From assembly GCF_965363235.1 (NCBI RefSeq), contig NC_134842.1, positions 31,558,958 through 31,622,957 of the forward strand: a DNA stretch of 64,000 nt, written 5' to 3'. The position numbers were made by a program, and so were the translations under genes. The notes beneath the pieces were generated by a model, which made no database searches, was not told where the DNA came from, and worked only from the letters and a program-made list of their open reading frames with translations. This document shows positions 9,774 through 63,779 of this stretch, in pieces (the first letter of the stretch is position 1; the number at the start of each line of letters is the position of its first letter). This stretch comes from Mytilus galloprovincialis. Its lineage: Eukaryota > Mollusca > Bivalvia > Mytilida > Mytilidae.

Positions 9774-9866
9774 ATTAAAGCTTTTGTTATTACTTGTGAG
9801 AAGACAATGGAGCGATTACAAAGAAACCTCATGACAAGCTTTGTATTTACAACATTGTATCTAGTT
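9774..9866 (+). CDS. Gene A exon with start codon and signal peptide
   Basis: A TAAATAG acceptor at 9773 gives a 33-nt 5' UTR before the ATG at 9807. Twenty codons end exactly at a GTAAGT donor (phase 0). The acceptor this close upstream implies at least one earlier non-coding exon, which I could not place. B and C have the same arrangement with 32 and 33 nt. Confidence 0.75.
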
Positions 9867-12800
9867 GTAAGTATTACTTATAATATTATGTTTGTTAATA
9901 GAACACGGGAATAGCCAAAGGTAGCTCAGAAATTAACTTGGAATATTAAGAAATTTCAATTACAGTAGTGAAAGGTTTAGCGCTATAAAACCAGGTTCAA
10001 TCCACTATTTTCTACATTTGAAAATGTCTGTACCAACTCATGAATATGACAGTTGGTGTCCATTAGTTTGATGTGTTTTATCCTTTGATTTTGCCATTTG
10101 ATTAGGGACTTTCCGTTTTGAATTTTCCTCGGAGTTCCGTTTTTTGTGATTCTACTTCTTACAGTAGTAATAAACTTGACATAAAAAATGTATTTGCAAT
10201 AAACTGAACGAACACCCATCTTTACAGGGTAATACACTTTGTTTCATTTCAATACAAAAACATTTTCCGGCTTTGAATAATATAAATTAGTCGATCATAT
10301 ATCTGCAAATGTTAAACCATGTCGAAAATGTTTTAGGGTACTTTCACCTATAGTGTTGGTTTTGTTTTTACACATTATGACTTAAATGGCAATTTGTCTT
10401 ATTAAAACTCATACCACGTCTTCTTATATTTATGTAAAACATTGTGTTGGAATAGAAAACAGATTAATGTACTACAACAAATGACATTTTTGAGTCATGT
10501 TTAGTTTTATTCTTCGTGATAATTTTTAAATTGAGGCAAACGAATGATTATTTCCTTATCCTTATCTAATCAATGATCGAATTCACAGTGAAATGAATCT
10601 AAAACATTCTTTAACAAACAATGAGAATATTTATTTATAAATAAAGGCATGAACCTGTTTTTGTTTTTTTTTTCAATTTTTAATCAGACAACAGATGCAT
10701 GTAACGCAAATGAGTTTCAGTGTACAAGTGGGCAATGCATTCAAAGTGCATTACGATGTGAGGGCAGCAGTTTTGATTGTGACGACCGTTCAGACGAGGT
10801 GAATTGTAAGTAGATGTTAATGATATGATATGCAATAGTTATCGCATGAAGACGTGGTGTGTCAGTGTCAGATCACCCTGATGACCGGAGGCCAGAGGTT
10901 GATCTTACACTGACACACCAAGTCCGAATGGGATAACTATTTTACATTCCAGCTGTTTTAGATTAGACGAAAAAACATTTACAATTCATTAAATCTAGTT
11001 AATAACGCCACACTAGTAATAATATATACCCTTTATGACTACCTTATACGATGTTTAGATATGAGAACATGTCAACTCGCCCCACTGACCAATCGCCTCT
11101 TTCTAAAAAATTGTACCACTTATGAAAAAGATAACTGAAATTGAAAAGTCAGTCTGACAACTCGCCTTATTTATGAAAAGTGTTAAAATCTCCCTAAATA
11201 AAGTGTCTACTCCTTCCACTTATGAAAAATATCTTGCTTCCTTTAAATATGGTAGATTACTAGGAAATTGTATTCAGTCTTCCTGGTAAAGGGGTATGTG
11301 TCGTGGGCTGATATGTTAAAGGTCTTGAGTCCCAGTGTAGACAGTGGACTTTTCTACTTAGATTTTGATAGTGTATCTTTTCTCATTACATATTTCTAAG
11401 TTTTATTGTCGATTAAGCATTCCCGCTAAATGTTACAAAACAAAGGAAAGCATGCAAAACAAAGACACTTGAGCTGGGATGGTATGGCATGGATGATCCA
11501 GCTCAAATCACCCCTGTTAGAACAAAGGAGCTGGGATGTAACCTGGAGGTATATTTGACCATTCATTTGATTGCTAACATCGTTTTGATGAAATCAAATG
11601 TAGGTCAAATTAAAAAAAAATGCAATAGTAGTATAACGTGTTCAAAAATCATGAATCAATCATAAAACAACTCCGGTCTACAAACCAAATCTTTGGGAAA
11701 GATAACTGTGATATTTATATGTCTCTCGTCAATGCATTGGTTATTGCAAATTAATCGTATTTGTTTATATTTGATATCTAGGTCCGTTATAGTAAACTAT
11801 ACTTCAGTGTTTATGTTTTTCTATTTAGTTTCTACCTTATAAATTTCGTGTATTCTGTTTATAACTTCCCTTTCAAGTTATAAATGACAACATGTGTAAT
11901 TGAACGTAGTTCATAACATACAAATTCACCAAAAACTAAAGAATCATCTTATTACCACACTACAAAAAGATACTATAGATATATTTAGTAACGACTGAAA
12001 ACGAAAAACCAGAAGGTTGAAAACGAACAATCCACTACAAAAGACCTGGTTGCAGTCATGATGTAAAGTCCGATACTTTGTTCCTTTAAAATATAAGTCA
12101 GTTGACAAACTTGAAATATTCTAGACATTTTGTCTTGCTTAAGGTGGTACTTAACACTACAGGGAGATAACTCTGTTATAGCAGCTAAACGTTTTAAATA
12201 CGTTGCGTTGTGAAGGCAATATAAAGCTTCTCAATGATCAAAATTAGTGTTTGTCAAACTGCTATATAACCAGTGTAATTTTTCTGATAAAATGGTTGGT
12301 TCAAAGTTTTTGATTTTTTTATATTTTTGTCCAAGGGTCAAAGTAAATACTTTGTCAAACTTTTATGAAAATTAAACGAGCCAAATTAATTTTAGTGAAA
12401 GTGTTGGGTACCACCTTAAAGTTATAACTAGTCAACGGTAGACACAATAATTCATCTACGGTGTCATGGGTTTAACATTGATCTGTTTTGTTGACTTTTA
12501 ATTATCTGTCCGTCTACCGTATTTCCTTATTAATCGTAATAATTTTCTTTCTATTGAACATGTTGAATGGGCTTTTCTCTTTTTTTTTATAAAAGTATTT
12601 TTTCGTTTTTTTATAATTTCTACTTCAATACTTTCTACATATAATCTAGACCAAGGAGGGACGACATAGGTTCGACACCGAAGTATGTGTCACAAACAGA
12701 AATGAACGACCATTACTAACGACAATGATGGAGTTATCGACGTCATTGTAAAATCATCAACTCAAAATATAACAGAGACAACACCAACAGACAAATTTCA

Positions 12801-62500: not shown

Positions 62501-63779
62501 TCGGGTTAAATTTATTGATTAAAGTTTTTAGTCTACATAGATTTTGATGAATTTAAAGTCCAATTAACTTGAAACATGGTACACCTGTTCCGTGTGATAT
62601 GATCGTCCTTATTGTAATGCCAAATTAGAGATAATCAAATTTTAAGTTTGAATGTCCATCTAGTATCCATCGCCCCTCTTTTTTTAAGCGGGCACCTGAA
62701 ACGAATTTTTTGTTGTACCAAAACTTTTTATTCATAACAAACCTAAGGCTTATGAGAAAATATACATGGCAATTCTCTGATACTGGTAAAAGAAATACGT
62801 TAGCATGGACACGACTTCGATTAAAAAAACGACTTAATACGAAATCAATCTGAAATACATCGTTTTAAAGCACACACAACAGCAAGTATTCAAACCAGGT
62901 CCCGGATATCTAGATTTTGTTTTAGATTTAACAGTTCTAATACTGTATGAGATCATAAAAATCGGAATAAAATGCAAAAGTAATCTAAAGAAAATTATAA
63001 AATATTTGTATATCGAAAAAGGTATCTAGTACTGCACGTAGTGCATACATATCTAGTGCATGCGTGTTATCAGAATGATGGAATGGTTGAAATATATAAC
63101 GCTTTATAGTATGTCTCAAACACTATAAGTACACATTTACAAAATTAAAGAAATAAAGGGGGTCAAACACTGTTTAGGCTAAATATAAATTAATTTTTAT
63201 TTCGAAGAAACATGTTTTCACAAAGCATATTGAGTTGGATAGTGTGGTTGCAGCCTTTTTTATTCTTCTTGAAAATAGATTATGTATTATGTAATATAAG
63301 CTGTTCATTCCTTTTAATAGTTTCATCTATAAGCATCGTAGCTAAAATAAAAAATAGAAACGAGACTTTGTACTTCTGTACGTTTGTACTTCTACGTCCA
63401 AATCGCTTTCCTGGATTTACGTTCGTTAAGAGCGATCAAAACCAAATATCTAAAGCATAACAACTGAAACAATTGAAGAGCTTTTTACCAAACTTTGGCA
63501 TAAAAATAAAAGCCATATGTCTTGTGTATGACGTTCTTTTAGATATGAAGCATTGGCAATAATTGAAAACAGTTGTAATTTTGTATGTTGTATTTCAGGA
63601 ACACTAACTCAAGATTTAATAGAAACTCATCGTCCCATAACGGTGATTCTAAACACAAAGTTACCACTACGATGACATATAAAAATCCAGATTTCTTTCG
63701 AATGGCTACAGCTTACAAGGCAAAAAGTAAGTGTGATTTAAAAAGACATAGAATTACGATAGACATAATCAAATTATAA
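56438..63779 (+). CDS. Gene C: LDLa / half-LDLa mucin-like single-pass membrane protein
   Basis: Exons: 56438-56522 (ATG 56471), 57954-58064, 58452-59888, 61185-61281 and 63599-63726 or to the stop at 63779. All junctions join in frame, giving 625 residues if exon 5 reads to its own TAA; otherwise the gene runs past the window. Leader: [18 protein letters not shown]. LDLa: residues 21-55 ([20 protein letters not shown]). Half-LDLa: 62-81 ([17 protein letters not shown]). The stalk, from about residue 85 to 520, is rich in [14 protein letters not shown] units. Then [10 protein letters not shown], a span ([20 protein letters not shown]) and a tail with [14 protein letters not shown]. It is the closest relative of gene B: identical exon lengths for exons 1 (52 coding nt), 2 and 5. 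The stalk is about one third shorter and lacks B's 37-residue modules. Function unknown, as for B. Confidence 0.82.
57175..57625 (+). repeat. Interspersed repeat family 1
   Basis: Full-length-like copy in gene C intron 1: AAGTGTCCACTTGTATTTTT to GGCAATCATGCCACATCTTC. Confidence 0.8.
57954..58064 (+). CDS. Gene C exon 2, LDLa domain
   Basis: 111 nt, CAG acceptor, GTAAGT donor. Same length, phases and cysteine spacing as gene B exon 2. The acidic box is retained (GDLSDE). Confidence 0.92.
58452..59888 (+). CDS. Gene C exon 3, half-LDLa module and Ser/Thr stalk
   Basis: 1437 nt, CTGAAG acceptor, CCAG/GTATAC donor, phase 1 at both ends as in gene B. After the half-LDLa, [12 protein letters not shown] leads into the stalk. 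9-residue units run from about 59190 to 59730. Only one C-terminal S-M-P-I-K-Q-T module is present, against five in B. Confidence 0.9.
59190..59730 (+). repeat. Coding 27-bp minisatellite in gene C stalk
   Basis: About 20 units of 9 residues, [13 protein letters not shown], with one 8-residue unit (TVQLSAKS). Less uniform than in gene B. Confidence 0.82.
59889..61184 (+). other. Gene C intron 3, aligns with gene B intron 3
   Basis: The first roughly 100 bases after the donor, a GCTGGTTA...TTTAATGA...AAAGC block near 60660 and the 200 bases after it align with gene B intron 3 on either side of the 3.87-kb insertion. No repeat or exon inside. Confidence 0.6.
61185..61281 (+). CDS. Gene C exon 4, membrane span
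   Basis: 97 nt, TTTTACAG acceptor, GTAAGA donor (phase 2 out). Encodes [20 protein letters not shown] then LVATVLI and a basic RNVKCR. Two codons longer than in B. Confidence 0.9.
61282..63598 (+). other. Gene C intron 4
   Basis: AT-rich. Contains the inverted relative of the 47340-47690 repeat at 62430-62650. Otherwise no feature; the 82-codon frame at 63212-63460 has no recognisable motif. Confidence 0.4.
62430..62650 (+). repeat. TTCG/TCCG-rich repeat, relative of 47340-47690
   Basis: CCGTCCGTTCGTTCGTTTG tract followed by a CAATTAACTTGAAACATGGT to GCCAAATTAGAGAT stretch, the complement of the 47340 region. Confidence 0.6.
63599..63779 (+). CDS. Gene C exon 5, cytoplasmic tail
   Basis: ATTTCAG acceptor. 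Encodes [15 protein letters not shown], a Lys/Thr stretch, then [20 protein letters not shown] donor at 63727 conserved with gene B. Read-through would add about 17 residues ending in IIKL and stop at 63777-63779. Confidence 0.82.

Follow-up and report, generated by a model that had tools for sequence, protein, structure and literature searches.

A tandem family of putative single-span membrane proteins with an LDLa head and Ser/Thr-rich stalks of very different length in the mussel Mytilus galloprovincialis

Members of the LDL receptor family proper carry EGF and YWTD propeller units and an NPxY-type tail motif. Three neighboring mussel genes, here called A, B, and C, have the LDLa module in common with LDLR, VLDLR, and LRP, and a phmmer search with the head of C matches LDLR-family chains. 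The mussel proteins differ from these receptors in having no EGF modules, and the absence of any cysteine from all three stalks excludes EGF there. Pfam detected neither a propeller nor a SEA domain in A; in B and C, the scan covered the first 101 and 96 residues, respectively. The NPxY-type motif takes the form NPDF in the tail of C and is absent from A and from the aligned tail of B. The closest named design is that of CD320, the transcobalamin receptor of the LDLR family, minus its EGF module. According to passages of PMC11667166, CD320 consists of a leader, N-terminal LDLa modules, a Ser/Thr-rich O-glycosylated region, a single span, and a short tail. A–C share with it the leader, an LDLa near the N-terminus, a Ser/Thr-rich region ahead of a single span, and a short tail. 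However, two LDLa flank an EGF-like module in CD320, whereas A–C have no EGF module between or after their modules and their second LDLa appears truncated. The Ser/Thr region also differs in scale, with 699 residues in B versus about 60 (residues 170–230) in CD320, as given in the same passages of PMC11667166. For CD320, a PLxWRCD motif has been described; its tryptophan is missing from the LDLa of A, B, and C.

Clustered single-pass transmembrane genes have been described in another mollusc, the snail Biomphalaria, where the GRC/PTC1 and PTC2 clusters are proposed to encode recognition receptors (passages of PMC4361660 and PMC10875847). Such snail clusters are polymorphic, with hyperdiverse alleles. 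The likeness to A–C is one of layout and clustering, and the LDLa-bearing snail receptors in these passages are seven-span GPCRs, unlike the single-span A–C: in SudRes2, ten GRL101-like GPCRs combine LRR, LDLa, and lectin domains (passages of PMC12297450), and one LDLa GPCR is listed in a table of candidates (PMC10875847). The main text of PMC4361660 contains no occurrence of 'LDL', and the snail-cluster passages of the three papers (PMC4361660, PMC10875847, PMC12297450) describe no LDLa single-pass protein. Membrane-bound mucins, the stalks of which are densely O-glycosylated, resemble A–C in that a membrane span anchors a stalk rich in Ser/Thr and repeats, but A–C add an LDLa head, and proline is low (4%) in the stalks of B and C. 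An earlier note on this DNA could name no family that matches this plan exactly. The literature searched (titles and abstract openings, with most subscription journals outside its scope) yielded none and does not contradict that statement, although the CD320 design comes close.

Within the window, the whole 64,000-nucleotide stretch of DNA analyzed, three neighboring + strand genes follow the order leader, LDLa, four-cysteine module, Ser/Thr stalk, one span, and tail (Table 1). Their joined coding frames run without an internal stop for 201 (A), 874 (B), and 646 (C) residues, and all 13 predicted introns (three in A, five each in B and C) are bounded by GT-AG. The shared domain order claimed by the earlier note is borne out and lies far beyond chance. 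Judged from these models, the products of A, B, and C appear to be putative type I membrane glycoproteins with an LDLa head. The further claim of identical exon order and phases holds for B versus C, with intron phases 1,1,1,2,1 in both and two tail exons each. It does not extend to A, whose phases are 0,1,1, with a deviating first intron, and which lacks the two tail exons, its stop codon lying inside the membrane exon. DNA alignment of B with C gives a match at all six predicted exons and hardly any outside them, most intron sequence being unalignable; at the leader, the alignment spans the C exon at 78% identity. The first residue of B exon 6 is split with exon 5. Neither Rfam nor tRNA scanning of the window gave a match, and Pfam found nothing at E 0.01 in three minus-strand ORFs. 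The stalk exons carry long open frames on the opposite strand as well.

Table 1 Predicted coding exons of genes A, B, and C, in window coordinates.
Feature	Position	Strand	Evidence and remarks
A exon 1, leader, 20 residues	9807..9866	+	phase 0 donor GTT/GTAAGT
A exon 2, complete LDLa	10688..10805	+	PF00057 43.4 bits; splice sites
A exon 3, four-cysteine half-LDLa and 84-residue stalk	12867..13202	+	splice sites, joined frame
A exon 4, membrane span plus short tail (last residues RENEIV, then stop)	14359..14450	+	joined frame
B exon 1, leader, 17 residues	26219..26270	+	leader scan; phase 1 donor CAG/GTATGT
B exon 2, complete LDLa	30063..30173	+	PF00057 43.8 bits
B exon 3, half-LDLa and 699-residue Ser/Thr stalk	35991..38174	+	open frame 759 codons; 27-bp (9-residue) repeats
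B exon 4, membrane span	43225..43315	+	aligned to C
B exon 5, cytoplasmic tail	43955..44082	+	joined frame, comparison with C
B exon 6, last coding exon, 19 residues then stop	45400..45458	+	homologous to C last exon
C exon 1, leader, 17 residues	56471..56522	+	leader scan, B alignment; phase 1 donor CAG/GTATGT
C exon 2, complete LDLa	57954..58064	+	PF00057 50.7 bits
C exon 3, half-LDLa and 450-residue Ser/Thr stalk	58452..59888	+	open frame 512 codons; 27-bp repeats
C exon 4, membrane span	61185..61281	+	joined frame, B alignment
C exon 5, cytoplasmic tail with YKNPDF ([FY]xNPx[YF])	63599..63726	+	then GTAAGT donor
C last exon	64664-64779 (numbering continued, beyond window)	+	homologous to B last exon

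The leader of A is the only leader-like candidate in 7000–10690, found at a laxer threshold than that used for B and C; the stricter scan of 8000–10690 returned none for this gene. We regard this call as less sure than the other two leaders because of the laxer threshold and because no paralogue aligns with it. The phase 1 donor of A exon 2 falls within the sixth cysteine codon, and exon 4, which leaves a tail of about 11 residues, has similar-looking counterparts in paralogues at C5 7.956 and 7.971 Mb. Used to query the genome, this membrane exon hit only its own position and one other sequence, at E 8.3, and is thus too diverged to trace the family. Gene C does not end at 63779, the end point given by the earlier note: the stop there results from reading through the GTAAGT splice donor that starts at 63727, whereas the true last exon falls beyond the window. 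An apparent second C tail exon ahead of this last exon proved to be the last exon itself plus intron.

In A, B, and C alike, the first LDLa contains six cysteines; it scores 43.4, 43.8, and 50.7 bits, respectively, against profile PF00057, above the gathering cut-off of 24.1 bits (E = 4.6e-12, 6.3e-12, and 3.9e-15 on the scanned pieces). Part of the LDLa calcium-ligand pattern is given in PMC4947154; right after the fourth cysteine, inspection by eye places Asn in C and Glu in A. The second module of all three proteins has four cysteines and falls outside the six-cysteine definition of LDLa. It is best read as a predicted LDLa minus the last two cysteines and the calcium lobe. Complete LDLa elsewhere show the same CPEGLxxC start, and two related loci, gene D (described below) and C5 8.037 Mb, hold a complete LDLa in this very position, a hint at the origin of the half module; on these grounds, we reject an unrelated new domain. 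A structure model of the half module reached middling confidence (pLDDT 71, pTM 0.33). None of its 19 Foldseek matches came at E <= 0.001; the titles of 10 name an LDLR-family receptor.

The family extends beyond the window, which therefore does not hold the whole array. Gene D, a fourth member, lies downstream of C; it has a complete LDLa, with six cysteines, as second module, and its tail exon was not found with the motifs tried. Genome searches identified 17 loci, on C5, C10, and C1, that carry the four-cysteine module in intact or damaged form, besides two loci with a complete second LDLa (gene D and C5 8.037 Mb), both placing it before a stalk of 9-residue repeats. At three further loci that we fetched (C5 7.730, 7.956, and 7.971 Mb), LDLa, half module, stalk, and membrane exon are likewise present. 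Some copies are damaged: 2 of the 17 half-module loci have an in-frame stop, the half module at C5 48.041 Mb has lost its second cysteine, and the first LDLa at C5 48.180 Mb its fifth. A tree of 15 rows left 9 of 12 inner branches open and gave no resolution. The expanded family suggested by the earlier note is supported, for this genome, by these predicted loci; the expansion may, as that note proposed, be lineage-specific, and the surface receptor or membrane mucin role that it put forward would fit the anatomy.

The stalks of A, B, and C measure 84, 699, and 450 residues, in agreement with a previously estimated range of about 85 to about 690, and contain 32, 42, and 42% Ser+Thr. The D stalk reaches 1,476 residues (51% Ser+Thr, 10% Pro), so that length spreads about 18-fold from A to D, and in B, C, and D the stalk accounts for the larger part of the protein. 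Between B and C, dN/dS is 0.238/0.372 = 0.64 over 625 codons (p 9e-5 in a naive Fisher test of all codons) and is not significant without the repeat region (p 0.07, rounded counts). By region, on small numbers, the ratio is 0.31 for the LDLa, the lowest among regions of at least 28 codons, 0.83 for the non-repeat stalk, and 0.30 for an 18-codon juxtamembrane piece.

We favor, with a probability of about 0.6, a rapidly changing tandem gene family whose products are type I membrane glycoproteins for cell-surface recognition or adhesion. This reading draws on the LDLa matches, the B–C alignment at exons and hardly at introns, the 13 GT-AG introns, the B–C dN/dS, the same plan at other loci, and the complete second LDLa of gene D and C5 8.037 Mb. 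Counting against it are the missing PLxWRCD tryptophan, the Asn of C and the Glu of A right after the fourth cysteine, the middling half-module model and the Foldseek result, the p value of 0.07 without repeats, the low proline, and the open tree. The first LDLa would fold around calcium and act as a ligand-binding head, and the truncated LDLa, keeping the N-terminal hairpin with the calcium lobe gone, may serve as a disulphide-braced spacer. The stalk, putatively O-glycosylated judging by its composition, would keep the head off the membrane, and gain or loss of 9-residue repeats may change its length. Recognition or adhesion would most likely take place on the surface of blood cells, gill, or gametes, with paralogues differing in reach and ligand. 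Should the stalk itself do the work, as the glycocalyx rod of a barrier or anti-adhesive membrane mucin, the LDLa head would be incidental. The bulk that the stalk contributes to B, C, and D, its composition in D, and its 18-fold length variation speak for such a role, which we consider a minority possibility, as A has a stalk of just 84 residues and the LDLa, rather than the non-repeat stalk, shows the lower dN/dS (0.31 versus 0.83; small numbers).

An endocytic cargo receptor of CD320 type, internalizing for example a carrier protein or a lipoprotein, would share the layout of LDLa head, Ser/Thr stalk, and single span, and could use the YKNPDF of the C tail (three occurrences of [FY]xNPx[YF] on the + strand, this one included, and none on the - strand in all frames of 143.9 kb). 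We think this quite unlikely, given that the aligned B tail has no such motif and A ends after about 11 residues; to our knowledge, cargo receptors are also not usually amplified with very different stalk lengths. It is very unlikely that these are mostly relic genes, a decaying array whose frames are held open by repetitive low-complexity sequence. The stops and cysteine losses at other loci, a dN/dS not clearly below 1 without repeats, and the long opposite-strand frames in the stalk exons are what decay would predict, but A, B, and C retain complete splice sites and open frames, and six homologous exons persist in B and C despite mostly unalignable introns. The recognition or adhesion reading also has a more speculative form, which we hold to be unlikely: an undescribed multi-cluster mussel recognition-receptor family combining head sequence change with repeat-driven stalk-length change, with alleles that vary from one animal to another, like those of the snail resistance clusters, and with the truncated LDLa as a new minimal four-cysteine module.

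If expressed, these genes would provide paralogues within a single animal whose heads follow one plan but whose stalks differ greatly, a suitable system for studying the effect of stalk length. The set would equally serve to examine whether recognition in bivalves involves clustered single-pass proteins with an LDLa, as proposed for clustered single-pass proteins in snails. Genes of the D type, set beside A–C, allow the states before and after the possible conversion of a complete LDLa into a four-cysteine module to be compared.

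Models of the three plus-strand genes of the window (C5:31558958-31622957), named A, B and C, come from splice sites and reading frames in the sequence, with the exons then joined by script. All 13 introns carry GT-AG boundaries, and the three joined frames contain no internal stop. The LDLa scores 43.4, 43.8 and 50.7 bits against PF00057 in A, B and C, respectively (cut-off 24.1). The domain order described in the earlier note, consisting of a hydrophobic leader, LDLa, four-cysteine (half) module, Ser/Thr stalk, hydrophobic span and tail, is present in each gene, with leaders and spans called from hydropathy and reading of the sequence. 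The family end placed at 63779 does not stand, since a stop of C at that position needs read-through of a GTAAGT donor at 63727; the exon of C homologous to the final exon of B (INYAGDPCQ...) lies 0.7 kb past the window.

Positions of genes, family loci and other features (window positions unless a contig is named)
Feature	Position	Strand	Description
Gene A		+	4 exons, 201 aa; modelled
Gene B		+	6 exons, 874 aa; modelled
Gene C		+	6 exons, 646 aa; final exon beyond window; modelled
Final-exon homologue of C	64664-64779
Shared tail block	43955-44082; 63599-63726		begins FRM(V/A)
Family loci, window	C5		A, B, C
Family loci, C5 cluster	C5 7.730, 7.828, 7.851, 7.956, 7.971, 7.991 Mb
Family loci, third C5 cluster	C5 48.041, 48.049, 48.180, 48.210, 48.220 Mb
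Family loci, C10	C10 29.557, 29.732 Mb
Family locus, C1	C1 108.210 Mb
LDLa-rich place	C13 13.77-13.79 Mb		complete LDLa GNVAPPCPEGLYRC...
Open frame	12706-12903	+	shortly upstream of and into A half-module exon
Adjoining tandem arrays	24257-25493		between A and B; 159, 261/135, 35/69 bp
Two array regions	39026-39348; 42474-42790		mostly ~25-bp units built on TTCTACCTAGAACTGA
Open frames	67-492; 5750-6196; 6673-7539	-

The four-cysteine module was used as a protein query against the genome (1.385 Gb, 331 contigs). The proposal of an expanded family is supported by at least 17 loci on C5, C10 and C1, the counts obtained by this method being lower bounds. Complete LDLa matches (one on C7 judged by Pfam) and the LDLa exon of the 7.991 Mb locus were left out. 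Module-only E-values are weak at several loci (0.94 at C5 7.828 Mb), which were counted because an LDLa exon lies upstream. Within the DNA examined, such an exon precedes the module at 15 of the 17 loci, the 48.180 Mb copy having no fifth cysteine; the 1.5-kb flanks searched at the two C10 loci showed none. The membrane exon was found at six loci, namely the three window genes and C5 7.730, 7.956 and 7.971 Mb, where longer stretches were covered than at the other loci. Two loci (C5 7.851 and 7.991 Mb) have an in-frame stop, and the half module at C5 48.041 Mb no longer has a second cysteine. A tree built on 15 short rows gave no resolved branching order. Visible stalk starts in the third C5 cluster (48.04-48.22 Mb) are short.

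The array continues about 9 kb past the window in gene D, whose first LDLa has two additional cysteines and whose second module is a complete LDLa (CIEGLNYRCDNGQCANRCNRIQDCFDGTDEANC). Its stalk of 1,476 residues is 51% Ser+Thr and 10% Pro, with no cysteines and with TTSEMTTVP-like repeats; the reading that includes the membrane exon reaches 1,608 residues at that exon's end without a stop. A motif search found no D tail. A D-like arrangement recurs at C5 8.037 Mb, where a complete second LDLa (PCPEGLHKCDNNQCVSSDARCNGRTECVDGSDESSC) precedes a TETTQSSLP-repeat stalk; a first LDLa was not seen within the 1.5 kb examined. A pattern scan of C5 31529000-31672899 found no additional LDLa or half module, and the same pattern also overlooked D. 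The complete LDLa on C13 is 64% identical to the second module of D, and this LDLa-rich place is a possible source of the family.

The cysteine spacing of the module is that of the first four cysteines of LDLa, and D-type genes carry cysteines five and six, with the acidic stretch, at the same place; the module therefore reads as an LDLa cut after its fourth cysteine. An alignment of nine of the 17 loci has seven invariant columns (C, P, E, C, G, C, C), and three loci outside it have V or H in place of the invariant P. LDLa disulphides pair 1-3, 2-5 and 4-6 (PMC4947154, excerpt), which leaves module cysteines 2 and 4 partnerless, so that these would need to pair together. An AlphaFold model of the half module has short strands (pLDDT 71, pTM 0.33), and Foldseek returned no significant match to it.

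Leaders were sought as a start codon with a hydrophobic run and a donor. At the threshold used for B and C, the scan gave two candidates in 14500-30060 (B side), one in 45600-57950 (C side) and no candidate for either A or D. Both the B candidate in phase 1 and the C candidate are 52 bases long with the donor CAG|GTATGT, and 9 of 17 residues are identical. As a control, the same threshold was applied to 143.9 kb; in phase 1 it returned two candidates for the minus strand and three for the plus strand, the latter including those of B and C. The leader of A is less sure, as its sole candidate appears only at a laxer threshold and in phase 0 rather than 1; of the shared phases claimed earlier, the leader donor agrees in B and C (phase 1) and not in A. 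For D, MKTNFLLVVSVLLLLECLV is the best of four rows at a laxer threshold, two of the four having the same start as D, and its donor is weak.

A DNA alignment of B (26000-46000) with C (56200-65200) on the plus strand at E 1e-3 matched all six exons (leader, LDLa, half module with stalk, span, tail, last) and the 3' flank. Outside the exons it recovered a 76-base stretch (45232-45307) shortly upstream of the final exon, and two places in B (31182 and 40863) match one repeat place in C; the remaining intron sequence was not alignable at this E-value. This pattern, in which exons align and introns hardly do, has the appearance of selected exons. Overall dN/dS between B and C is 0.64 (625 codons), with 0.31 for LDLa (38 codons), 0.91 for the half module (28), 0.83 for the non-repeat stalk (214), 0.50 for the repeat stalk (218, uncertain alignment), 0.30 for the juxtamembrane piece (18), 0.81 for the span (31) and 0.68 for the tail (61). 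The leader (17 codons) has eight non-synonymous and no synonymous changes. By a naive Fisher test, p is 9e-5 over all codons and 0.07 once the repeat region is left out. The genes evolve fast, and LDLa is among the best-held parts between B and C, on small numbers. In the tail and last exons, the FRM(V/A) block is common to B and C, which are less alike in the rest of the tail; YKNPDF, resembling an endocytic NPxY motif, occurs only in the C tail.

The open frame near the A half-module exon resembles a diverged copy of the start of the A stalk and may be a duplicated stalk segment or a relic of one. The two TTCTACCTAGAACTGA-unit regions, about 3 kb apart, both lie in the B intron preceding the membrane exon. 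The three minus-strand frames, which we take to resemble broken retroelement coding pieces, gave no Pfam match at E 0.01.

The component parts of the family are all of known kinds. Their combination (LDLa, truncated LDLa, a stalk of at least 84 residues and a tandem array) was not found in a literature search whose coverage left out most subscription journals. Clustered single-pass genes of Biomphalaria (PMC4361660, excerpt) parallel the mussel array in arrangement, with no kinship implied; snail candidate receptors with LDLa are seven-span (PMC10875847, PMC12297450, excerpts). In the Mediterranean mussel, the families affected by gene presence-absence variation are usually young and recently expanded (PMC7653742, excerpt); 'LDL' does not occur in the main text of that paper. 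CD320 uses a tryptophan ahead of the fourth LDLa cysteine (PMC4947154, excerpt). This residue is missing from the LDLa domain of all three window genes, so that any ligand contact would differ in detail. The layout, repeats and exon conservation are directly visible in these genes; on the favoured reading, the encoded proteins would lie at the cell surface, with a calcium-dependent, ligand-binding LDLa head atop an O-glycosylated rod and the single span as anchor.
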